This document shows, in pieces, positions 2,053 through 20,552 of a DNA stretch of 22,751 nt. The position numbers and the translations under genes were made by a program. A model generated the notes under the pieces. It was given only the letters and a program-made list of their open reading frames with translations. It was not told the DNA's origin and ran no database searches. The first letter of the stretch is position 1. Every line of letters begins with the position of its first letter. The DNA is from a virus, in IMG/VR virus record IMGVR_UViG_3300008470_000308, positions 1 through 22,751 of that record; one strand, given 5' to 3'.

Positions 2053-2547
2053 ATGATAAATGAAAATTATAAAATAGTACCGATCGGAAAAGAGATCGCT
2101 ATGGACACTGATACAAAATATTCAGATTCCATCAATATGAGGGGGTATCACAAAGCCACCTTTGTTATCACATTTAACACACTGGCTGATGAAAGCAATA
2201 AACTTACCGTTACAAGTGGGGCCACAGCCACAGCATACTCATCTGACCTATACTTTAATTATGCGTTAGGTGGTGCGGCGGTTGGAGCAGCGGTAGCCGG
2301 TTCAACGGCATCTTGCGACGTTCTTGCAGATTGGACGAATGCTGCAACTCTGACCCTGACACATGGAACGTATACCAATAAGATGTTGGTCGTTGAAGTA
2401 GATGCTGCATCAATGGATATTGCCAATGGAGAAGAATGGTTGGCTTTGGTTTTTACATATGTAGCATCCGCAACAGGTACTGCAAGTGTAATTGCAATCC
2501 TCGAACCCCGCTACAAGAGCAACCGTTCGGGAACTTGCCTGGCATAG
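2053..2547 (+). CDS. Structural protein of unknown function, copy A of a tandem pair
   Basis: This 164-residue protein follows the capsid gene with a strong SD (GAGGAGG). It is clearly paralogous to the next gene, also 164 residues: both share YKIVP near the start, a M-R-x-Y-H-K-A-T-F segment around residue 35, YA-GGAA-G-AVAGS in the middle, and ILEPRY near the end. The composition is rich in Ala, Thr, Ser and Val with few charges and no membrane segment, as in a beta-rich virion protein. Position right after the capsid gene suggests a head decoration or capsid-associated role. That is inference from location only, as no known family was recognised. Confidence 0.75.
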   Translation: MINENYKIVPIGKEIAMDTDTKYSDSINMRGYHKATFVITFNTLADESNKLTVTSGATATAYSSDLYFNYALGGAAVGAAVAGSTASCDVLADWTNAATLTLTHGTYTNKMLVVEVDAASMDIANGEEWLALVFTYVASATGTASVIAILEPRYKSNRSGTCLA

Positions 2548-2564
2548 CTTGAAAGGAGGCTATT

Positions 2565-3059
2565 ATGATAGCAGAACAATATAAAATAGTTCCGGTGATG
2601 AACTCGACGGACATTGGTGCGGGAACAGCTGGTGATTCTATCTGTATGAGGGATTATCACAAGGCAACCTTTATTATTACTATGGGAGCGGTTGCTGGTG
2701 CGAGTCTTGTGGTGCAGATATTCAGTGGGGCTGGCGATGGCGATAGAACCACGGCACTCGCTTTCGAGTACGCTTACGGTGGTGCAGCTATTGGAACAGC
2801 GGTAGCCGGAAGTGAAGCATCAAGCGATGTTCTGGCAGCATGGGCAACAGCTGCGACTACCGGTGTTGCTGTCGGCGATACGTCCTATGACAACTTTATG
2901 CTGGTGTGTGAAATCAATGCGTCTGCAATGGATACCGCGGACAATGAAGAGTGGTTGACAATATATCCGAATGGAGGAAGTTCGGGGGTTATGCACATTG
3001 TCGCTATTCTGGAACCGCGCTATCCAGAGAACAGGATTTACACTTGCTTGGCGTACTAA
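2565..3059 (+). CDS. Structural protein of unknown function, copy B of a tandem pair
   Basis: This is the second member of the pair beginning at 2053, with equal length and the same ordered motifs: YKIVP, MRDYHKATFIIT, YAYGGAAIGTAVAGS, EEWL and ILEPRYPENR. Divergence is greatest in residues 10-30 and 45-70, so the duplication is old enough for specialisation. Start ATG has AGGAGG ten bases upstream, and the 15 bases from SD to start (2554-2568) are repeated exactly at 4368-4382. The gene is followed by a stem-loop at 3068-3091. A decoration protein or its partner is the best guess. The two copies may form a heteromer or occupy different lattice sites. Confidence 0.75.
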   Translation: MIAEQYKIVPVMNSTDIGAGTAGDSICMRDYHKATFIITMGAVAGASLVVQIFSGAGDGDRTTALAFEYAYGGAAIGTAVAGSEASSDVLAAWATAATTGVAVGDTSYDNFMLVCEINASAMDTADNEEWLTIYPNGGSSGVMHIVAILEPRYPENRIYTCLAY

Positions 3060-3304: not shown

Positions 3305-3835
3305 ATGGGAAATTACAATCAATCAATGAGAAACAGTATCGGAGACGTTAACCGGGGCATTCTGGTTGAGACAGGCGACCTGCTTAGTACATCATACCAT
3401 ATTCAGGGGCAGGTCAATATCTTTACTGTTTACAATCGAATAATCGTCTATGGTCTTTGGGGTGAGGTGGTTCTCGCGGATCTTATTGGTGTTGGCTGTT
3501 TGCATCAATTCAACTGGACGTCCACAATTCCGGTGATTACAGTGCAACCTCTCTGTGCGGTTTCGACTGACATTACCGCGCTTGTGGTTGGCAACCGATT
3601 AACATTGCCGGGTGATGATTCCGGTACAGCATGCGCAATAACATATCTTGAGGGGATTTCATATTATGATCCCACACCGATGATTATCGGAAATTCTCGG
3701 TCATCTGCCGGTGTTGAAAGCTATGGAGTTATTGGTGAGTTGACCACAGTCGCAGACCTCACCGCTGGATCAATAAGATATTCAATCTTATACGTACCGC
3801 TTGACCACGATGCGTATGTTGAAGCGTTACTCTAA
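3305..3835 (+). CDS. Structural protein of unknown function, copy A of a second tandem pair
   Basis: This 176-residue beta-rich protein is paralogous to the following 171-residue protein. Shared features in order are a short charged N-terminus, (I/M)xVET at about 19-23, the FTVYNRI(I/L)V block at about 39-48, F-x-WTS with P-x-ITVQ at about 69-81, P-MI(I/M)GN at about 128-133, and a closing LYVPLD or LYIPID. Start ATG 3305 is two bases after the preceding TAA, with AGGAGG inside the end of the previous gene. No signal peptide or membrane span is seen. It is probably a virion component such as decoration or a small spike. No family was recognised. Confidence 0.72.
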   Translation: MGNYNQSMRNSIGDVNRGILVETGDLLSTSYHIQGQVNIFTVYNRIIVYGLWGEVVLADLIGVGCLHQFNWTSTIPVITVQPLCAVSTDITALVVGNRLTLPGDDSGTACAITYLEGISYYDPTPMIIGNSRSSAGVESYGVIGELTTVADLTAGSIRYSILYVPLDHDAYVEALL

Positions 3836-3853
3836 GAAAGGAGGACTGAAAAA

Positions 3854-4369
3854 ATGAACGAATCTACACGTACTATGATTAGAGACATGAAAGCTGGCAT
3901 GTTCGTTGAAACCAATGTCCTGCTTGGGACGGCGTATTTAGCAACGGCACAGGTCGAGCTTTTCACGGTTTACAATCGGATACTGGTTATGGGTCTGTTT
4001 TTTGAGGTCACTACATTGTGGGCCGGAGCGACGACCCTGAAATTTACATGGACATCTTCGGAACCAACAATAACGGTACAGGATATTTGCGCTTACGGCG
4101 GCAGCATGGATACTTTTGTTGCAGGGGCACGGTGTTATATGGTTGGCGACGCTTATGATACTGTTGCCAATGTTGAGGAAAGCGCCGGGATAACTCCTTT
4201 CGATGCTCTTCCTATGATGCTTGGAAATGCTCCGACTCTGGCAGGGGTGACGAGTGTGGGCACAATTGGTCAGGACAGCGGAGTTGCCGGAACTGGAGTT
4301 TCCGCCGGTAAATTCGGACTGCTTTATATTCCGATTGATCCAGGCTCTCGTGCCGTAGCACTCATGTAG
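3854..4369 (+). CDS. Structural protein of unknown function, copy B of a second tandem pair
   Basis: This 171-residue paralogue of the gene at 3305 shares FTVYNRILVMGL, FTWTSSEPTITVQDIC, PMMLGN and LLYIPID. Start ATG 3854 has AAAGGAGG upstream. The TAG stop (4367-4369) overlaps the SD of the next gene, and the downstream 62-residue gene is in the same frame. If this amber were read through, the two proteins would be fused. It is most likely a structural protein, with function unknown. Confidence 0.72.
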   Translation: MNESTRTMIRDMKAGMFVETNVLLGTAYLATAQVELFTVYNRILVMGLFFEVTTLWAGATTLKFTWTSSEPTITVQDICAYGGSMDTFVAGARCYMVGDAYDTVANVEESAGITPFDALPMMLGNAPTLAGVTSVGTIGQDSGVAGTGVSAGKFGLLYIPIDPGSRAVALM

Positions 4370-7486: not shown

Positions 7487-8481
7487 TGAGCTACGAACTG
7501 AAAACAAATACAGCGGTAAGGTTAGCAGTTGGGCCTTTAGTTGATCCTGGGGATGGGAAAACGGCGGAAACGTCCCTCACCGTTACTGCTCTGCTTGTCC
7601 AGATTTACCGCATTCAGAATGATGGTAATGCGGTTGTCAGGGCAGCATTCAATCCGACAACCGATAGCGGTGATAACGACATGGTGCTGGTTACATCATC
7701 AACTGACGGTATGTACGATTTAGAGATAACTGCCGCTCAGATCAACTGGCTTGGGAACGGACGAATTTCTTTTTATGACGTGGACGGGTTCTTAGTTCAT
7801 TACTTTGATATTCATGTGGTTTCAGCGGCATATTGGAATTGGAAGTACGCAACGACCATACCAGAGGTTAATGTTAAACAGTTATTAGGTACGGCATGGT
7901 TGGCTCCTGGAACAGCTGGAACGCCGGATGTCAATGCAAAACAGCTTGGTGGTACGGCACAAACGGGCAGAGATATTGGAGCGAGTGTTCTTCTTTCTAC
8001 TGGTTCAGGTGCGGGACAGCTTGACTTTACTTCGGGCGTGGTCAAATCCAACCTTGCACAGATACTTGGAACAGCATTGACTGAAACGGCTGGTTATATT
8101 GCGGCTGGATTCAAGAAACTGTTTAATGTTGAAACTCCGGTGCTTGTTGCTTCTGATGTTATGCGAGGAACGGATACTGGCCCCACGAAAGCAGAAATGG
8201 ATACAGCCCATGCACTATTAGCAACCCCGGCAAATGTAAATACACAGGTTCTTGATGTTCTAACCACGGATACATTTGCCGAACCTGGGACAGGCGCACC
8301 ACCCGCAACGGCAAGTATAGAAGAAAAGATAAGCTGGCTGTATGCTTTTCTCCGAAACAAGACACTAACTACTTCTAGTTTACTCACATTGAGAAATGAT
8401 GCGGATAATGCGGATATAGCGAAAGCTACGTTAAGTGATGATACAACCACTTTCAGTAAAGAGGAATTTGTGAGTGGCTAA
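7486..8481 (+). CDS. Multidomain tail/fibre-type structural protein
   Basis: This 331-residue protein opens with an all-beta domain (about residues 1-112). Its layout, AVGPLVDPGDGKTAETSLTV then GMYDLEITAAQINWLGNGRISFYD, is common in phage structural proteins. WNWKY (about 117-121) and low-complexity repeats containing VNVKQLLGTA and VNAKQLGGTA (about 128-160) follow. The C-terminal 75 residues contain EEKISWLYAFLRNKTLTTSSLLTLRNDADN and ATLSDDTTTFSKEEF, a module seen at the ends of fibre-like proteins, with a helix that may trimerise. It overlaps the next gene by 8 bases. A fibre or virion appendage role is likely. Confidence 0.65.
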   Translation: MSYELKTNTAVRLAVGPLVDPGDGKTAETSLTVTALLVQIYRIQNDGNAVVRAAFNPTTDSGDNDMVLVTSSTDGMYDLEITAAQINWLGNGRISFYDVDGFLVHYFDIHVVSAAYWNWKYATTIPEVNVKQLLGTAWLAPGTAGTPDVNAKQLGGTAQTGRDIGASVLLSTGSGAGQLDFTSGVVKSNLAQILGTALTETAGYIAAGFKKLFNVETPVLVASDVMRGTDTGPTKAEMDTAHALLATPANVNTQVLDVLTTDTFAEPGTGAPPATASIEEKISWLYAFLRNKTLTTSSLLTLRNDADNADIAKATLSDDTTTFSKEEFVSG

Positions 8482-9277
8482 CCTCGATTCAGAAAATAAA
8501 CGAAGGGCTGCTTTTAATTTACCGGGATATGTTATCAATCCTGTGGCAGATGGAACGATAGGGGATGCGGACAGAGTACAGGCATCGGGATGGTATAGCG
8601 GGATAGGCATAGGGGGGGCGGTATATGAAAAATCATTATCGGACACAATCAACCTATCCGATGCAATCGCACGGAGCATGGGTATCCCAAAATCTGACAC
8701 CATTAATTTATCAGATGGAATAGTTAAGGGTTTTGGGTTTCCACGGGCCGATTCTGTTTCCCTCTCCGATGCGATTGCAAAAGAATTTGGAGCTGTAAGG
8801 TCGGAGACAGTTACTCTATCAGACGGGGTTGCAAAGGCTCCGAACATAGCAAGATCGGATTCAATTACCTTATCTGATGGGATTGTTAAAACTGTGGGGA
8901 TGCCTAAAAGCGATACGATTACGCTTGCAGACAGTATCGTAAAGGCCATGAGTATAGATAAGGCAGATTCAATCACCTTATCTGATTTGCTTTCAAGGGA
9001 ATTCGGGTTGAATAAGGCCGATACTGTTTCAATGTCCGATGGAATTGCAAAAGGCTTTGGGTTGATCAGGTCTGATACGGTTACTTTGTCTGATTTGCTT
9101 TCAAAAGGTTTTGGTTTGAGCAAGACAGATATAGTTACCTTATCTGACAGTATTGCAAAAGAATTTGGCTTAACTAAATCTGATACGATTACCTTAACAG
9201 ATTCCAACGACATATCAGGAATAGTCGGATTCATAATTGAACAACTTGGACTTCATTCATTACAGAATATATTTTAG
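8474..9277 (+). CDS. Protein built of eleven 18-residue tandem repeats
   Basis: This 267-residue protein starts at GTG 8474 inside the end of the previous gene. Residues 1-54 are a non-repeated head containing RRAAFNLPGYVINPVADGTI, which may anchor it to the virion. Residues 55-234 are ten full 18-residue units with consensus (K/R)SD(T/S)(I/V)TLSDGIAKGFGL, plus half a unit at 235-243. A short hydrophobic tail (ISGIVGFIIEQLGLHSLQNI) follows. Regular SDTITLSD strands alternating with IAKGFG turns suggest a beta-solenoid or fibrous rod. Context argues for an adhesin, fibre shaft or spacer. Units differ enough to be an old array. Function not known from sequence. Confidence 0.75.
   Translation: MANLDSENKRRAAFNLPGYVINPVADGTIGDADRVQASGWYSGIGIGGAVYEKSLSDTINLSDAIARSMGIPKSDTINLSDGIVKGFGFPRADSVSLSDAIAKEFGAVRSETVTLSDGVAKAPNIARSDSITLSDGIVKTVGMPKSDTITLADSIVKAMSIDKADSITLSDLLSREFGLNKADTVSMSDGIAKGFGLIRSDTVTLSDLLSKGFGLSKTDIVTLSDSIAKEFGLTKSDTITLTDSNDISGIVGFIIEQLGLHSLQNIF
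8636..9202 (+). repeat. 54-bp coding tandem repeat array, ten units plus a partial one
   Basis: The unit is 18 codons. Units begin at 8636 and every 54 bases up to 9122, with a partial unit from 9176. Units are degenerate at DNA level, and best conserved in the segment for SD(T/S)(I/V)TLSD. Copies 9 and 10 and copies 7 and 8 look closest to one another. The array is wholly inside the repeat-protein gene. Confidence 0.85.
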
Positions 9278-12738: not shown

Positions 12739-13034
12739 TGAATGAAGAGAGAGTTGACGAAATATGTGACCGATGCAAGGAACCAATTAATATCTTGGTA
12801 TCAGAATTTGAACGGGCAATGAAGGCCGGAGAACCGATTTTATGCCCTGATTGTTATTCTGAATATCTCGACGAAGAAACAGAGGAGTTACCACCGAATC
12901 GGTGCTTTGAATATAAGATAGAGGAGCTGGGCGGAATACAGCATCTTGCAGTATTAAATAAGGCCGGTTCAGAAGGATGGGAGCTTGTGTCAGTGGATGA
13001 TGGAAAAGCATACTTTAAGAGGAATAATCTATGA
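12738..13034 (+). CDS. Zinc-ribbon protein with C-terminal DUF4177-like domain
   Basis: In this 98-residue protein the first half has Cys10-x-x-Cys13 and Cys36-x-x-Cys39, a treble-clef or zinc-ribbon arrangement. Residues 57-95 (FEYKIEELGGIQHLAVLNKA, GSEGWELVSVDDGKAYFKR) match the short DUF4177 fold with the hallmark GWELVS. The combination in one chain is unusual. It is coupled to the tail terminator (TAATG) and to the glycosyltransferase-methyltransferase gene (ATGA). A role in that block is possible but not shown. Confidence 0.65.
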   Translation: MNEERVDEICDRCKEPINILVSEFERAMKAGEPILCPDCYSEYLDEETEELPPNRCFEYKIEELGGIQHLAVLNKAGSEGWELVSVDDGKAYFKRNNL

Positions 13035-14398
13035 TTTCTATAATAATCCCCGCCCTGAATCAGCTTGAAATGACGATGGGGTGCATGGAGGCAGTCGAAA
13101 AGACCACGGAGGACTACGAAATAATCATTGTTGACAATGGATCAAAGCCAGCCTTTGACAGCGTTCCATTCACGCCAAACGATAATGAGATACGCATTAT
13201 CCGGAATGAAGAAAACCTTGGTTTCCCAGTAGCAGTTAATCAGGGTATCAAAGCGGCAAAAGGGGACATTATTGTAATTATGAACAATGATGTGGTTTGT
13301 ACCCCTAACTGGCTTGAGACATTGCAAGGGCGGCTATCTGACGGGCTTGATATGGTAGGACCTGTCACTAATTCGATCTCCGGGCCCCAACAGGTATTGA
13401 TTGATAGTTACGACGATTTAACGGGCCTATATAAAGCCGCTGAAGACCATAAAAAGAAAAACGAGGGGCAATGGTCTCCTTTTCACAGGCTGGTTTTCTA
13501 CTGCGTGGCGATAAAAAGAGAAGTCATAGATAAGATCGGATTGCTTGACGAGATTTACACGCCGGGGAATTATGAGGATGACGATTACTGTATGAGGGCG
13601 ATTGATGCAGGTTTCAAATTAGGAGTTGCAAAAGATTGTTATGTTCATCATTTTGGGAGCGTAACACATAAGGCTATGGATATCGATTACAGGGAATTGC
13701 TTGCAAAAAATCAAAAGATATTCAACGAAAAATCGGCTGATAGATATAAGGAAATGATAAAGAAAAACAACCAGGATGGTAATGAGATTATTTTTACCGG
13801 TGAGCGGGCCATGCCTTTGGATTCCGGGACACCCCCTGATGTCATGGAAGAGCATTGGGCACGATATAAATATGCTATTCAGTTTGTGAAAGATAAGAAG
13901 GTTTTGGATGTGGCATGTGGGGCAGGATATGGAGCTGACCTGCTTTCTGAAACAGCCGAATCCGTAATAGGCGGGGATATCTCTCCCGAAACAATTGCTT
14001 ATTGTAGATTGCATTATCCGAACCCCGGCTTTTTCGTGTTTGATATTTGCGACATTCCATATCTTGAAAATTCATACGACATAATTGTTAGCTTTGAAAC
14101 TATCGAACATATTAAGGACGGGAGGTTGTTTCTCTCCGAGATTGTGCGGGTACTGAAAGAAGACGGGAAATTGATTATTTCTTGTCCTCTCGGCGGAAAC
14201 TGTGGCAACCCATATCATCTAATATATTACCAGAAGGGAACCTTTGAGCTTGTCTTGAAGAAATACTTTGATGGGGTAAAAATGCTCTACCAGAGAAAGG
14301 GGGAGTTTTTCGAGGATAGCATATCCCCTGAATATCACGAAACTTTTACAGGTGAATATGCGATGGCAATTTGCAGCAAACCAAAGGAGGTATCATGA
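13031..14398 (+). CDS. Glycosyltransferase family 2 fused to SAM-dependent methyltransferase
   Basis: This 455-residue bifunctional enzyme starts with a GT-A domain, about residues 1-240: SIIIPALNQ, IIIVDNGS (nucleotide site), NLGFPVAVNQGIKAAKGDII, NND at 85-87 as the metal-binding DxD equivalent, ED(D) at 183-185 as likely catalytic base, and HHFGSVT. After a lysine-rich linker (235-250), residues 285-400 form a class I methyltransferase: KVLDVACGAGYGADLL (motif I), GGDISPETIAYC, FDICDIPYLENSYDIIVSFETIEHI (motifs II/III) and a VLKEDGKLIISC strand. It would transfer a nucleotide sugar and methylate a sugar or partner substrate. Substrates cannot be read. Lying between terminator and tube genes, it may modify the virion. 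Confidence 0.88.
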   Translation: MISIIIPALNQLEMTMGCMEAVEKTTEDYEIIIVDNGSKPAFDSVPFTPNDNEIRIIRNEENLGFPVAVNQGIKAAKGDIIVIMNNDVVCTPNWLETLQGRLSDGLDMVGPVTNSISGPQQVLIDSYDDLTGLYKAAEDHKKKNEGQWSPFHRLVFYCVAIKREVIDKIGLLDEIYTPGNYEDDDYCMRAIDAGFKLGVAKDCYVHHFGSVTHKAMDIDYRELLAKNQKIFNEKSADRYKEMIKKNNQDGNEIIFTGERAMPLDSGTPPDVMEEHWARYKYAIQFVKDKKVLDVACGAGYGADLLSETAESVIGGDISPETIAYCRLHYPNPGFFVFDICDIPYLENSYDIIVSFETIEHIKDGRLFLSEIVRVLKEDGKLIISCPLGGNCGNPYHLIYYQKGTFELVLKKYFDGVKMLYQRKGEFFEDSISPEYHETFTGEYAMAICSKPKEVS

Positions 14399-15223: not shown

Positions 15224-15711
15224 AATGTCAACCAAATCAGGAAGAATAGCAGGCGTTAAACTGGGAGCAACAGCAATCGCAGGTCAGGGTACGTGGTCCT
15301 TCGGGGGGTTCACCCGTGAGATAATTGAGGAAGATTCTTGGGATATCGATATCAAGAAGAAATACTTTGGTGTGGGTGATGCAGGAACGTTGTCATTTTC
15401 GGGTCTTTACGATGCCCAGGCTACCACGTTTACTACTGGACAGAATGCTATCAATTCGGCGTGTATTAACTCCTCAGCCTTTGAGGGCGGGAATGTTTCT
15501 ACAGCCACATTAAACTTCTTTATTGATAACACATCTTACTGGACTGCGACTACCGGTGGAGAGATTCTCATCACAAAATGCCAAGCTATTACTATGGATA
15601 AATCAGGGATGGGAACCATTGACTTTGAGGCAGTTATTTCCGGTGGCGTAATGATACTTATATAAAATCTAATGGAGGTGTAAAATGTCAACCAAATCAG
15701 GAAGAATAGCA
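15214..15711 (+). repeat. Direct repeats between the two tail tube genes, offset 460 bp
   Basis: A 38-base block at 15214-15251, covering SD, start and first codons, recurs exactly at 15674-15711. A second 40-base block at 15322-15361 recurs exactly at 15782-15821. Both have the same 460-base offset, so they mark one tandem duplication. Sequence between and after these blocks has diverged. Confidence 0.9.
15225..15665 (+). CDS. Major tail tube protein, copy A
   Basis: This 146-residue protein is likely a tail tube subunit of the siphophage type. It has the pattern GQGTWSFGGFTREIIEEDSWDI, GDAGTLSFSGLYDAQ, FIDNTSYW, ILITKCQAITMDKSGMGTIDFEA and an ending in GG-V-M-I-L. The start, with GGAGGTG nine bases upstream, is identical to that of copy B. 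Copy A differs from copy B in the loop after FSGLYD, where it has an added Thr-rich stretch. Two tube-type proteins in tandem may mean one forms the tube and the other a decorated or terminal ring. Confidence 0.8.
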   Translation: MSTKSGRIAGVKLGATAIAGQGTWSFGGFTREIIEEDSWDIDIKKKYFGVGDAGTLSFSGLYDAQATTFTTGQNAINSACINSSAFEGGNVSTATLNFFIDNTSYWTATTGGEILITKCQAITMDKSGMGTIDFEAVISGGVMILI

Positions 15712-16101
15712 AGCGTTTATCTTGGGGCTGCAAAAGTCGCAGGTCAGGGCACGTGGACCCTCGGGGGTTTTACCCGTGAAGTAATTGAGGAAGATTCTTG
15801 GGATATCGATATCAAGAAGAAGCATTTCAGCGTGGGTGATGCGGGGACATTGACTTTTTCAGGTCTTTACGATCCTGACGATGATGATGGGCAGACATTA
15901 TTGAACTCTGCATGTAACAATTCATCGGTGCTTATAAGTAATGTATTGAAGTTATACATTGATGCTGCATCATATTGGACTAACACGACAGGACACAGCA
16001 TCCTCATCACGAAATCTCAGAGTGTCATGATGGAAAAATCCGCAATGGGAACGATTGACTTTGAAGGAGTAGTGAGTGCAGGAGCGATGGTGCTTGTATA
16101 A
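15685..16101 (+). CDS. Major tail tube protein, copy B
   Basis: This 138-residue paralogue of the preceding gene has the same ordered motifs: GQGTWTLGGFTREVIEEDSW, DAGTLTFSGLYDPDDDDGQT, LYIDAASYW, ILITKSQSVMMEKSAMGTIDFEG, ending GAMVLV. The DNA around the start and around codons 33-46 is identical to copy A while the rest has diverged. That pattern suggests gene conversion or selection on those segments. The acidic DPDDDDGQ loop differs from copy A. Its position immediately before the assembly chaperones suggests it may be the main tube protein. Confidence 0.82.
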   Translation: MSTKSGRIASVYLGAAKVAGQGTWTLGGFTREVIEEDSWDIDIKKKHFSVGDAGTLTFSGLYDPDDDDGQTLLNSACNNSSVLISNVLKLYIDAASYWTNTTGHSILITKSQSVMMEKSAMGTIDFEGVVSAGAMVLV

Positions 16102-16113
16102 AAAGGAGGTTTT

Positions 16114-16521
16114 ATGACAGTTTTAAATCTTGAAGAAAAAGATGGTGCATGGTTTGAGATGGACGGCGGGGGAAGAGTTGAACTTAGAACTCTCTCATAT
16201 GATGCCTTGAAAACAATCAACAAGAAAAGCATTCGGAAAAAAGTTGATTTTAAAAAGGTCGAAGGAACTCCAGGGCGATTTGAATATGAAGAAGTCAACG
16301 AAGACCTCCAGAACGAATTGTTCTGGGATCACTGTATCGTAGCATGGGAGAATCTTTTTGATGCGAAAGAAAAGGAAATCCCTTGCACAACTGAAAACAA
16401 GGTTTTGTTGATGTCCAGGTCTGCACAGTTTTCAAGGTTCGTTTCGGATTCACTTCAAACTCTCTCAGAAGACGAAGTAGATCAAGACAAGGTAATTGAA
16501 AAAAACTCCGAGACATCATAG
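16114..16521 (+). CDS. Tail assembly chaperone G (short, zero-frame product)
   Basis: This 135-residue protein corresponds in position and design to lambda gpG. It is made in large amounts to bind the tape measure and help the tube assemble, and is not in the final virion. It is mostly charged and helical: LEEKDGAWFEMDGGGRVELR, then KTINKKSIRKKVDFKKVEG, then NELFWDHCIVAWENLFDAKE. Start ATG 16114 has AAAGGAGG upstream. Near its 3' end lies the slippery heptamer A AAA AAC. Ribosomes that do not slip stop at TAG 16519-16521. Confidence 0.82.
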   Translation: MTVLNLEEKDGAWFEMDGGGRVELRTLSYDALKTINKKSIRKKVDFKKVEGTPGRFEYEEVNEDLQNELFWDHCIVAWENLFDAKEKEIPCTTENKVLLMSRSAQFSRFVSDSLQTLSEDEVDQDKVIEKNSETS

Positions 16522-16547
16522 AGTTTAATGAGCTCGGCTCTAAACTT
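16500..16547 (+). promoter_or_regulatory. Programmed -1 ribosomal frameshift signal
   Basis: The slippery heptamer A AAA AAC (16500-16506) lies exactly in register with the G frame. In the -1 frame a TGA at 16497-16499 blocks any earlier entry, and the G frame ends at TAG 16519, so the switch must occur in about 20 bases. Downstream, GAGTTTA (16521-16527) pairs with TAAACTT (16541-16547), and GAGC (16530-16533) pairs with GCTC (16537-16540). This gives an 11-bp hairpin with an AT bulge, 14 bases from the slip site. Confidence 0.85.
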
Positions 16548-16847
16548 GGATTTACGCCAAAGGAATATTGTGATGGATGTAAAGAACTCTATGGTGCACG
16601 GAATCCTCCAGAAGAACCGCCATGCGATACATGCAGGCCAAAATATATAGAAGAAAACGCCGATGCGATTATGATCTTCTACAAAGTGCAAAGGCAATTC
16701 ATAATGGGATTTGACGGGCCGATTGACATATCCCACGAGGCGATACACAGAGAGATGGAACTTTATAACATAAGCGATAAACAAAGTTGTTTCGATAAGG
16801 TTTTAATAATGTCTCAAAGCTTTATCAACAGGATGAGGGAAAAATGA
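16506..16847 (+). CDS. T extension of the G-T tail chaperone, reached only by -1 frameshift
   Basis: Read in the -1 frame, this gives 113 residues after the slip site, making a G-T fusion of 244 residues. It opens with LRDIIEFNELGSKLGFTPKE and carries Cys22-x-x-Cys25 and Cys40-x-x-Cys43, a likely zinc ribbon. A helical region with IFYKVQRQFIMGF, ISHEAIHREMELYNI and LIMSQSFINRMREK follows. It has no believable start of its own in this frame. The end overlaps the next gene's ATG (ATGA). By analogy with lambda gpGT, the T part recruits tube subunits while G coats the tape measure. Confidence 0.85.
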   Translation, partial: LRDIIEFNELGSKLGFTPKEYCDGCKELYGARNPPEEPPCDTCRPKYIEENADAIMIFYKVQRQFIMGFDGPIDISHEAIHREMELYNISDKQSCFDKVLIMSQSFINRMREK

Positions 16848-17263
16848 GTCGAGTAGCTTTCTGGAATCCGAAGATAGCTGAAAAGGAAATTATGGGTAAT
16901 GCTATGGATCGTCTCATAGCCGCCGGTGAAGCCGTTGCTGAAAAGGCACGATCATTGTGCAAAGTTGGTACTATCTCAAGGCCGATGTATTCTAAAGGAA
17001 GATACGCGGGTCAATACTGGACAGCTAGGGATGCAGGGGCTTTAAAAAAGACTATCAGAGTTGTTACAAAGCATGGTGGAACCGGGCGCAATGTGTGGGT
17101 TATGGCTGGGACGAAAAAAGTTTACTACGCTCAGATCGTTGAATTTTATACGCCATTTTTAAGACCGGCACTAAACGGTTCAAAGGCTAAGATTAAAAGA
17201 ATTATACAGCAACCGACGATGGCCGGCGGCGGATCGTCTATTGCAATGGGAGGTAAATTCTAA
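16844..17263 (+). CDS. HK97 gp10-like minor tail/neck protein
   Basis: This 139-residue protein has a helical N-terminus (AMDRLIAAGEAVAEKARSL), then GTISRP, YWTARDAGALKKTIRVV, NVWVMAGTKKVYYAQIVEF and TPFLRPALNGSKAKIKRI. The Y-Y-A-x-I-V-E-F then PFLRPAL pattern is the HK97 gp10 signature. Such proteins are normally encoded before the tail terminator in the neck cluster, but here the gene lies after the chaperones, a displaced position. It overlaps the tape measure gene by one base (TAATG). Confidence 0.75.
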   Translation: MSRVAFWNPKIAEKEIMGNAMDRLIAAGEAVAEKARSLCKVGTISRPMYSKGRYAGQYWTARDAGALKKTIRVVTKHGGTGRNVWVMAGTKKVYYAQIVEFYTPFLRPALNGSKAKIKRIIQQPTMAGGGSSIAMGGKF

Positions 17264-18102
17264 TGGCAAAGAAGCCTGTTGGAAAAATCTTTGTCGAACT
17301 TGATCTTGATAAGACCAAGTATGAAGCCGGACTTGGAAAAGTAAAAGGCAAGGGCAAGAAGACCGCAACGGACATCGAAAAAGCTTGGAAGGTCATGGGC
17401 AAGAAGTCAGAGCAAACCTATGACCAAATGCGAGCCAATGTTAATAAGAATTATAATATAATCAAGAATCACGCCAAATCCACAGCCAATGATATTGTCA
17501 GAGCAGAGAGGGCAAAAGCTGCAAAGATCGCACGAATTAACGAGCAACAATTCGGGAAGCAAAAAAAACTAATAGACCAAGCCAAGCAACACTGGATGGC
17601 CTATGCCGCTGCTGTTGCTGGATTCATCATAGTGGGTAAAAAGATTCTCACGCTTTCAATGGAACAGGAGAAAGCACAGTGGGCTTTAAGGGCTGCACTT
17701 GTATCCAATAACGAATATACTAAAGAGACATTAAAAAGCTATACAGACTTTGCTTCTGCAATTCAAAAAGTAACGACCTTTGGCGATGAACAAGTCTTGA
17801 TGCTAATGGCTTTAATGAAAAACCTTGGTGTTCATAAAGACAAGCTAAAACTCGCAGCAGAACAGGCAATCGGTTTAGCTTCCGCAACAGGCAGAGGTGT
17901 AGAATCAATGGCTATGTATATTGCTCTTGCACATCAAGGGGAATTTACAATGCTCCGTAGATACATTCCGGCACTCAAAAAGACAACTGATGCTACTGAA
18001 CAGATGGCAATTATAACAGAGAAGACAGCACAGGGGTTTGTGTTTGCCAAGGAGATGGCCTTGACTTTTGGTGGTAGGCTAAAACAGCTTTCTAACTTGT
18101 AG
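17263..18102 (+). CDS. Tape measure protein, N-terminal part up to an in-frame TAG
   Basis: This 279-residue part of the tail length ruler begins MAKKPVGKIFVELDLDKTKY, a classic tape measure start (beta-strand then coiled coil). Residues 30-115 are highly charged and helical, a hydrophobic span follows at about 110-128 (WMAYAAAVAGFIIVGKKIL), then the typical helical region with FASAIQKVTTFGDEQVL and IGLASATGRGVESMAMYIALAHQGEF. The frame stops at TAG 18100-18102 after GGRLKQLSNL. Reading continues in the same frame with NDLHEGVGDAIVKNEAMVKL, which is how tape measures normally go on. So this is a broken or read-through gene, not a short protein. Confidence 0.85.
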   Translation: MAKKPVGKIFVELDLDKTKYEAGLGKVKGKGKKTATDIEKAWKVMGKKSEQTYDQMRANVNKNYNIIKNHAKSTANDIVRAERAKAAKIARINEQQFGKQKKLIDQAKQHWMAYAAAVAGFIIVGKKILTLSMEQEKAQWALRAALVSNNEYTKETLKSYTDFASAIQKVTTFGDEQVLMLMALMKNLGVHKDKLKLAAEQAIGLASATGRGVESMAMYIALAHQGEFTMLRRYIPALKKTTDATEQMAIITEKTAQGFVFAKEMALTFGGRLKQLSNL

Positions 18103-19329
18103 AATGATTTACATGAGGGGGTCGGTGATGCCATAGTCAAAAATGAAGCTATGGTAAAACTACTTGATGATGGCAAGAAGGTTATAACAGCATGGATTGA
18201 CCAGGTAGAACTATGGGTGAAACTCAATGATGAACTGATTGCTCAAAAAACTCATGAAGCAATAAACAAAATCAAATCATCATTAGAGGCAATTATAAAC
18301 ACATATAAAGCTTTGCCAGATGGTGTTATTGGCGCTGTTGGAACTGGAATACTCTTCAGGGTTTTAACTGGATCAACGCCAGTCGGGCGGGTTGTAACGA
18401 TATTAATGCTGGTCAACACGCAGCTTGAGAAAGCCGGCGTTAATATGAAAAAGATTGCTTCGGCCGCTGAAGTTGCTGTTAGTCCGTTAAGTCTTTTAAG
18501 GGGATTAATTCCCGAATCAGCTAAGCCGTCTTTCTTTCAAGGCGGGGTTCCCGGAACGATATCTGGCGCCGGAAGGGGGTTTCCAGCACTACCACCAAGG
18601 CCCGGAGTTCCAACAATGGCAGAACTGCCTGCTCCAGTCGAAGATCCCTCAGTTTTACGTCATAAAGAAATGGAAGATTTAAAACTTGGATACTTCATGG
18701 AGAATCAAAATTTAATACTTAAGGGTGTGGCTGATTATGAAACTTTAAAACTTCAAAAACAGAGAGATTCGCTTGCAAAAGAAAAGGCCATGCAACAGGC
18801 AAGAGTTGCAATGTACCAATCCGCCGCTGGTTCAATCGCAAATACCTTTCTTCGGATTGCACAAGCCGGAGGAAAGCAAAGTAAAAAGATGTTTGCAGTT
18901 TACAAAGCATTTGCGATGGTTGAGGCTGTCATTGCAGGGCACAGGGCTATTCTGCAAGCGATGGCGGCATACCCCCCGCCGTGGTCTTTTATCATGGCTG
19001 GGATAGCTGGCGCAGCGGCAGCGGTTCAGATTGCAATGATCTCCGCCGCCAAGCCACCTTCCTATGAAACTGGAACTGATTATGTCCCAGAAACGGGGTT
19101 AGCTTTATTGCATAAAGGGGAGAAGGTCACTCCGGCTGGAAGGAATAAAGGAGAGGGCAACACCTATATCACCGTCAAAATGGAAAATCCAGTCTTTCAG
19201 GATGTCGCAACACAGAGACAGGTTTTTGCACAGATCGCCGAGGTTATCGCTACACGGGTCGCACCCGGGGCAGTGGTTAATGATTATAGAAATGACGGAA
19301 TGACGAGACAGGTAATAGGGAGAGTATAA
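18103..19329 (+). CDS. Tape measure protein, C-terminal part after the in-frame TAG
   Basis: This is the same frame as the N-terminal part. The first Met codon is 18151, but no SD precedes it and NDLHEGVGDAIVKNE just upstream is evidently coding, so separate initiation is unlikely. The region contains charged helices, a proline-rich linker (PALPPRPGVPTMAELPAPVE), coiled-coil sequence (KLQKQRDSLAKEKAMQQARV), a hydrophobic segment (PWSFIMAGIAGAAAAVQIAM) and the typical tape measure ending ETGTDYVPETGLALLHKGEKV. The joined protein would be 688 codons; at the usual 1.5 angstrom per residue that means a tail near 100 nm. No lysozyme or peptidase domain was seen. Confidence 0.82.
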   Translation, partial: NDLHEGVGDAIVKNEAMVKLLDDGKKVITAWIDQVELWVKLNDELIAQKTHEAINKIKSSLEAIINTYKALPDGVIGAVGTGILFRVLTGSTPVGRVVTILMLVNTQLEKAGVNMKKIASAAEVAVSPLSLLRGLIPESAKPSFFQGGVPGTISGAGRGFPALPPRPGVPTMAELPAPVEDPSVLRHKEMEDLKLGYFMENQNLILKGVADYETLKLQKQRDSLAKEKAMQQARVAMYQSAAGSIANTFLRIAQAGGKQSKKMFAVYKAFAMVEAVIAGHRAILQAMAAYPPPWSFIMAGIAGAAAAVQIAMISAAKPPSYETGTDYVPETGLALLHKGEKVTPAGRNKGEGNTYITVKMENPVFQDVATQRQVFAQIAEVIATRVAPGAVVNDYRNDGMTRQVIGRV

Positions 19330-19694: not shown

Positions 19695-20144
19695 ATGCCA
19701 AAGAGCCTTGAAGCAGCAGTAATAACGGAAATGAATTTGGCGCAAAAAAGACCCTGTCTCTTGTTTGAGTTGGGCCTTTCTACTACTCTTCGATTTGCGG
19801 CCTATATGACTAATGTTACATTTCCTACTGGTGGTAAGGTCTACACCGCCAAGGCGATTACAGGCGCGGATGTAGCGCAGTCCATGGAAGGGCAAATCCA
19901 AAGAGTAACGGTTAATTTTGATAATGTCTCAAAGGATATTGCGGCGTATGCGGCTGCACAGGCCTTCCGTGGAGTATCGTTAGTTATTAAACGAGTCTAT
20001 CTTGACGCTCTGGGATCGGCAGACAATTACAATGAAGTCTTTAACGGTCATTTTGAAAAGCCAAAGTTCTCCCGCAAATGGATGACAGTTACGGCTACTT
20101 CGGGGAAAGGCCTTGATCGGAAGATACTTAACTTTCCCTACTAG
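19695..20144 (+). CDS. gpL-like / DUF2163 tail tip protein, N-terminal part up to an in-frame TAG
   Basis: This 149-residue part starts at ATG 19695 with AAGGA upstream. The layout (SLEAAVITEMNLAQKRPCLLFELGL, YTAKAITGADVAQSMEGQIQRVTVNFDN, VSLVIKRVYLD, VFNGHFEKPKFSRKWMTVTATSG) fits the gpL or DUF2163 barrel domain that sits at the tail tip. It ends FPY then TAG then RMCPLEFGGTEC in the same frame. In related proteins as I recall them this junction reads Y-Q-R-x-C, so the TAG replaces an expected glutamine. The gene is therefore interrupted by one codon only. Confidence 0.82.
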   Translation: MPKSLEAAVITEMNLAQKRPCLLFELGLSTTLRFAAYMTNVTFPTGGKVYTAKAITGADVAQSMEGQIQRVTVNFDNVSKDIAAYAAAQAFRGVSLVIKRVYLDALGSADNYNEVFNGHFEKPKFSRKWMTVTATSGKGLDRKILNFPY

Positions 20145-20552
20145 AGAATGTGTCCTTTGGAATTCGGGGGGACGGAATGTAACACAAATGGACTGGCAGA
20201 CTTAACTTCCCTCACGGCTGCCGGAACGGCGGACTCAGGTTCAACAACTACGCTGGTTGATAATGCCCTTACTCAAGTGGATGATTATTGGAATCACGGT
20301 AAAATTAAAATAACTAAGGCCACGGTCGATTACTGGAGGGTTGTCAAAGACTTTGTAGCCGGGACGGATACCGTAACTCTGGATGTGGCCATGCCATTTG
20401 CTATCGACACAGATTGTACTTATGTAATTTTTAAGGGTTGCGATAAAACTTGGGATGTGTGCGGTGGCGGAAGTGCGTGGGGGCCGAGTGGAAACAATCA
20501 GGCTAACTTTGGTGGATGTATTCATGTTAGCAAAAAGGCGGATGCGGGGTAG
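20145..20552 (+). CDS. gpL-like tail tip protein, C-terminal iron-sulfur domain after the in-frame TAG
   Basis: This is in the same frame as 19695. The first ATG (20148) has no SD. Counting from 19695 with the TAG as residue 150, Cys153 and Cys162 are 9 apart and Cys249 and Cys256 are 7 apart. These are the same spacings as the four cysteines that hold the [4Fe-4S] cluster in lambda gpL. Between the pairs is an 80-residue beta insert (STTTLVDNALTQVDDYWNHG to TYVIFKGCDK), longer than in lambda. The end GNNQANFGGCIHV is typical. Separation from the N-terminal half would leave the cluster domain without its barrel, arguing that both are made as one chain. Confidence 0.8.
   Translation, partial: RMCPLEFGGTECNTNGLADLTSLTAAGTADSGSTTTLVDNALTQVDDYWNHGKIKITKATVDYWRVVKDFVAGTDTVTLDVAMPFAIDTDCTYVIFKGCDKTWDVCGGGSAWGPSGNNQANFGGCIHVSKKADAG

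Follow-up and report, generated by a model that had tools for sequence, protein, structure and literature searches.

The window, meaning the whole stretch of DNA that was analysed, is the complete virus record of 22,751 bases. The record is a fragment, because the protease gene at its start and the J-like tail gene at its end are both cut off. Its gene order is head protease, HK97-type capsid, head-tail adaptor, tail terminator, chaperone pair, tape measure, hub and J-like protein. Positions 8474–9277 hold 18-residue repeats around SDTITLSD, with copies spaced 54 bases apart, and match phrog_12240, a protein of unassigned function. Between the tail terminator and the tail genes lies a gene (13031–14398) that fuses a glycosyltransferase-like part with a methyltransferase-like part; three relatives were found, all matching its first 240 residues only. 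The adjoining genes at 2053–3059, 3305–4369 and 15225–16101 are apparent tandem duplicates, as judged by eye from their translations. The tail chaperone gene (16114–16844) has a −1 frameshift site, A AAA AAC, ahead of a TAG stop, and the heptamer is present in seven of seven relatives; we take the gene to resemble the known G/GT type. That stop, at 16521, was considered as a lesion and rejected, being the zero-frame stop of the conserved −1 frameshift.

The tape measure gene begins at ATG 17263 on the plus strand and runs into an in-frame TAG at 18100–18102, at residue 280. Its 5′ part (17263–18102) is recognised as an ORF with flanking homology to single-ORF tape measure genes. The 3′ part (18103–19329) continues in the same frame to a TAA at 19329, has no start codon with a Shine-Dalgarno sequence, and is enough by itself to hit the PHROG profiles 1506, 3336 and 9483 for tape measures. 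The sequence reads GGRLKQLSNL before the stop and NDLHEGVGDA after it. Sixteen sense codons, with no ATG, GTG or TTG among them, separate the TAG from ATG 18151, and a GGAGG-like site is absent upstream of that ATG. In all these respects the original prediction of an in-frame TAG in the tape measure gene, with coding sequence on both sides and a poorly equipped downstream ATG, is borne out. A structure model of the tape measure has a mean pLDDT of 42.4.

What do the relatives have at this site? Three of them (L002, L003 and L004) align across the TAG as an unbroken ORF, with 58–65% identity in the best segments, and none of the eight aligned tape measure relatives has an internal stop, L004 being clipped by its contig end and L006 by its contig start. 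Two separate tape measure genes with a ribosome-binding site before the second, which the original prediction had named as evidence against itself, were sought in the relatives and not found. Nor was the second gene of a split pair, with its own start and ribosome-binding site, found here; 18151 has no Shine-Dalgarno sequence and the relatives are single ORFs. The suggestion that Gln fits well at 18100 fares worse: in the alignment of eight relatives (A3), the residue is Trp in two, Phe in two and Leu in one, with a gap in three. A tblastn alignment set CAA of L006 at the TAG, in a stretch that is gapped and poorly aligned. The sequence thus does contain this stop, in the true frame, and Gln is not the relatives’ residue.

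A second, independent in-frame TAG, missed by the original prediction, lies 2 kb downstream on the same strand, in the hub gene (19695–20552), which is the next-but-one gene after the tape measure. This TAG (20142–20144) falls at hub residue 150. The 5′ part of the gene (19695–20144), ended by the TAG, contains the N-terminal attachment domain (phrog_778; alignment A2), and the 3′ part (20145–20552) contains a Phage_BR0599 domain (PF09356). The phrog_778 profile spans the TAG in one stretch, covering residues 12–287 of the read-through hub. The best PDB profile match is 8vjh_D (E 9.5e-12 over 13–277), a single chain of 272 residues, and Foldseek matches the hub model to 8rk3_O (E 6.0e-13). Judged by profile and predicted fold, which match both of its domains, the split gene is a DUF2163/BR0599-type baseplate hub. 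The TAG lies within a low-confidence stretch of the model (residues 138–161; mean pLDDT 70.9 overall) that links two folded parts, and an ATG at 20148 follows one codon past it (TAG-AGA-ATG-TGT). Among the 30 aligned relatives (30 of 79 loci), the residue at this site is Gln in 20, Glu in 3, Ser in 2 and something else in 5, and a stop in none. The Gln argument thus suits the second TAG and not the first. An exact-pattern search at the second TAG turned up no nearly identical record, although very close records were possibly excluded from the search. A third lesion, at the hub’s terminal TAG (20552), was considered and rejected: the hubs of two of four relatives end within ~2 residues of it, and the other two are ~12 residues longer.

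Copies were removed from the samples before relatives were counted. For the in-frame-stop, invariant-column and terminator counts, 16 of 99 loci were dropped, and for the gene-end and heptamer comparisons 16 of 116; the 16 comprise five second copies of one contig and 11 presumed copies, by match statistics, of one 63.8 kb phage. Shadow frames overwhelmed a scan for stops in all six reading frames, and in-frame-stop sites were sorted by hand into real gene frames, with sites in the distant loci L088, L091–L093, L095 and L100 set aside. Eight window sites were listed; six of them rested on just one query ORF apiece, with two on the opposite strand and four upstream of the start of gene 19329, in its frame. 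In genes that can be compared with relatives, no TAA or TGA nonsense accompanies the two TAGs, and no in-frame stop was seen in near relatives at comparable genes.

Could TAG be a sense codon in this phage? Code 15, in which TAG encodes Gln, is used by some crAss-like phages, and phages that use it are expected to avoid TAG as a terminator. The presence of TAG in two structural genes, at one of which (the hub) Gln is the common residue, is what such a code would give. However, only two in-frame TAGs occur in ~7,300 codons (10 of the 37 query genes have no relative for comparison), and at 18100 the relatives have residues other than Gln. The terminators tell against it as well. TAG ends nine of the 26 window ORFs of at least 90 aa, a count that omits both nonsense TAGs, versus 22 of 180 in 20 relatives (drawn from the 83 loci kept; Fisher p 0.006, or 0.015 when the frameshift stop at 16521 is also omitted). 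With TAG as a sense codon, fewer TAG terminators would be expected, which is the opposite of the enrichment seen. For the TAG terminators at 684, 2019, 2547, 4369, 4567, 5196 and 20552, the protein of at least one relative ends within ~2 residues, with TAA or TAG. Some window TAGs also overlap the Shine-Dalgarno sequence of the next gene, as TAGGAGG. Coding density gains nothing if both TAGs are treated as sense, standing at 97.8% against 97.6% under table 11. Code 15 is rejected as extremely improbable, given that TAG ends seven genes normally and relatives end at about the same residue. More broadly, general recoding of TAG is contradicted by its normal role in termination, by a coding density that stays the same and by near relatives free of in-frame stops. 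The terminators and the coding density do not tell against weak suppression supplied by a host.

A host might instead sometimes decode UAG as an amino acid, by an amber suppressor tRNA or, in an anaerobic host, as pyrrolysine, with some full-length product made from both genes and TAG elsewhere still terminating well enough. In conserved genes, the two stops are TAG rather than TAA or TGA, each is directly followed by A, and conservation of the tail genes is otherwise good, all of which would suit such a host. The first of these points can be given a weight: the chance that two random stops are both TAG is 0.12–0.19 across the substitution biases tried, and 0.25 for C>T/G>A only, which is unsurprising; at most, the coincidence is some four to eight times likelier under suppression. 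Against leaky decoding, TAG is common as a terminator and not avoided, reading through the TAG at 684 would fuse the head protease in frame to the capsid gene, and near relatives have no in-frame TAG. There were no tRNA or Rfam matches in the window, and a suppressor tRNA in the same genome, a check proposed in the original prediction, is thus absent from this fragment of it. The 49 of 100 loci scanned contain a single Arg and a single Met tRNA and no suppressor; 12 whole relative records have one tRNA in total, again not a suppressor. A search for host clues among named phages, plasmids and genomes gave nothing useful, just four weak matches in genome contigs. Leaky decoding is unlikely, if worth keeping in view. 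The related idea that tail genes are drifting into TAG codons while TAG still terminates, as an early or host-imposed code ambiguity in late genes, is doubtful. Alternatively, both genes may work as two pieces, stopping at the TAG and restarting downstream. In the hub, TAG-AGA-ATG could yield the N-domain and C-domain as two chains able to assemble: the TAG lies between two folded parts, restart at ATG 20148 would retain all four invariant Cys (153, 162, 249 and 256), and a chain of the Sf11 tail, modelled with 152 residues, gives a match across 152 alignment columns. Yet neither 20148 nor 18151 has a Shine-Dalgarno sequence, the tape measure has no ATG, GTG or TTG in the 16 codons past its TAG, the aligned relatives are single ORFs, and the best PDB match of the hub is one chain, making a two-piece arrangement very unlikely. 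Programmed readthrough would predict a stop shared with relatives, and the stop is conserved in 0 of 30 hub rows and 0 of 8 tape measure rows (3 gapped at the site).

The two TAGs are probably lesions of this one consensus, by mutation or base error (probability ~0.6). All 30 aligned hubs and all eight aligned tape measure rows are free of internal stops, and at each site a single transition separates TAG from codons that occur in relatives. Of the explanations first offered for the tape measure stop (readthrough, recoding or a defective phage), a defect, or a sequence error, is best supported; general recoding fails, and suppression by the host is unlikely. The proposal is that two recent, unconnected nonsense changes occurred in two tail genes of one contig consensus. 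These may be real mutations in a defective copy, such as a prophage in decay or a variant of the sampled population that is not productive; or the metagenome assembly may carry base errors. A standard host would make a tape measure of 279 residues that lacks the C-terminal part, and a hub of 149 residues, perhaps with some restart at ATG 20148. With both proteins truncated, such a genome is not expected to build a tail by itself.

Some observations count against the lesion reading, among them the absence of TAA or TGA nonsense beside the two TAGs in the genes compared. At assumed error rates of 1e-4 and 1e-3 per base, the probability of at least two nonsense changes in a 22.7 kb contig is ~0.004 and 0.24, respectively. 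An independent double base error is therefore unlikely at low rates, leaving a poor consensus, a truly defective copy or tolerance of TAG. Long decay of the tail module is also unlikely, since the window resembles its relatives at invariant columns: it departs from them at 0 of 35 in the hub, 2 of 79 in the capsid, 2 of 148 in the J-like protein and 2 of 26 in gene 19329, all within the relatives’ range. The exception is gene 14570, where the window departs at 21 of 141 invariant columns versus 2–8 for four others, two of which are 91–92% alike to their nearest neighbour. The test covered five of 16 proteins, the 11 with fewer than five distinct sequences being skipped, and has little power for some tens of recent missense changes. 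Both stops would appear to be recent and non-functional.

What follows from each reading? If the stops are lesions, they show that nonsense changes can pass for recoding when a single contig is scanned, and the relatives’ residues, terminator use and coding density are the checks that separate the two. If both TAGs belong to an active phage, they point to a host with ambiguous decoding of UAG and provide two ready sites at which to test it.

Several known systems can be set beside this locus. Like the window, the code 15 phages described in PMC10607447 and PMC11210395 have TAG inside tape measure and other structural genes. For phAss-1, the account in PMC10607447 gives TAG in 41 ORFs, together with three suppressor tRNA genes, whereas the window has two TAGs, no tRNA and many TAG-ended genes. 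Figures from PMC11210395 put the coding capacity of predicted code 15 phages at 66.8–69.0%, rising to ~90% under the new code, a gain of at least 20 points; an amber suppressor tRNA is given there for 375 of 715 predicted cases, so that about half are without one. The hub is matched by both profile and fold to phage Chi gp27 (8vjh) and the JBD30 DUF2163 protein (8rk3), and likewise to the hubs or tail tips of the GTA (6tba), R4C (8gtc) and lambda (tail tip L, 8iyk). Unlike those proteins, the window’s hub is split by a TAG between its two domains. Ordinary nonsense (amber) mutations also occur in phage structural genes. The present case is unlike ordinary amber mutants in that two TAGs are in one contig and are known from sequence alone. 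It is like them in each gene taken singly: a single TAG in an essential tail gene, with intact relatives, one transition from a sense codon found in relatives.
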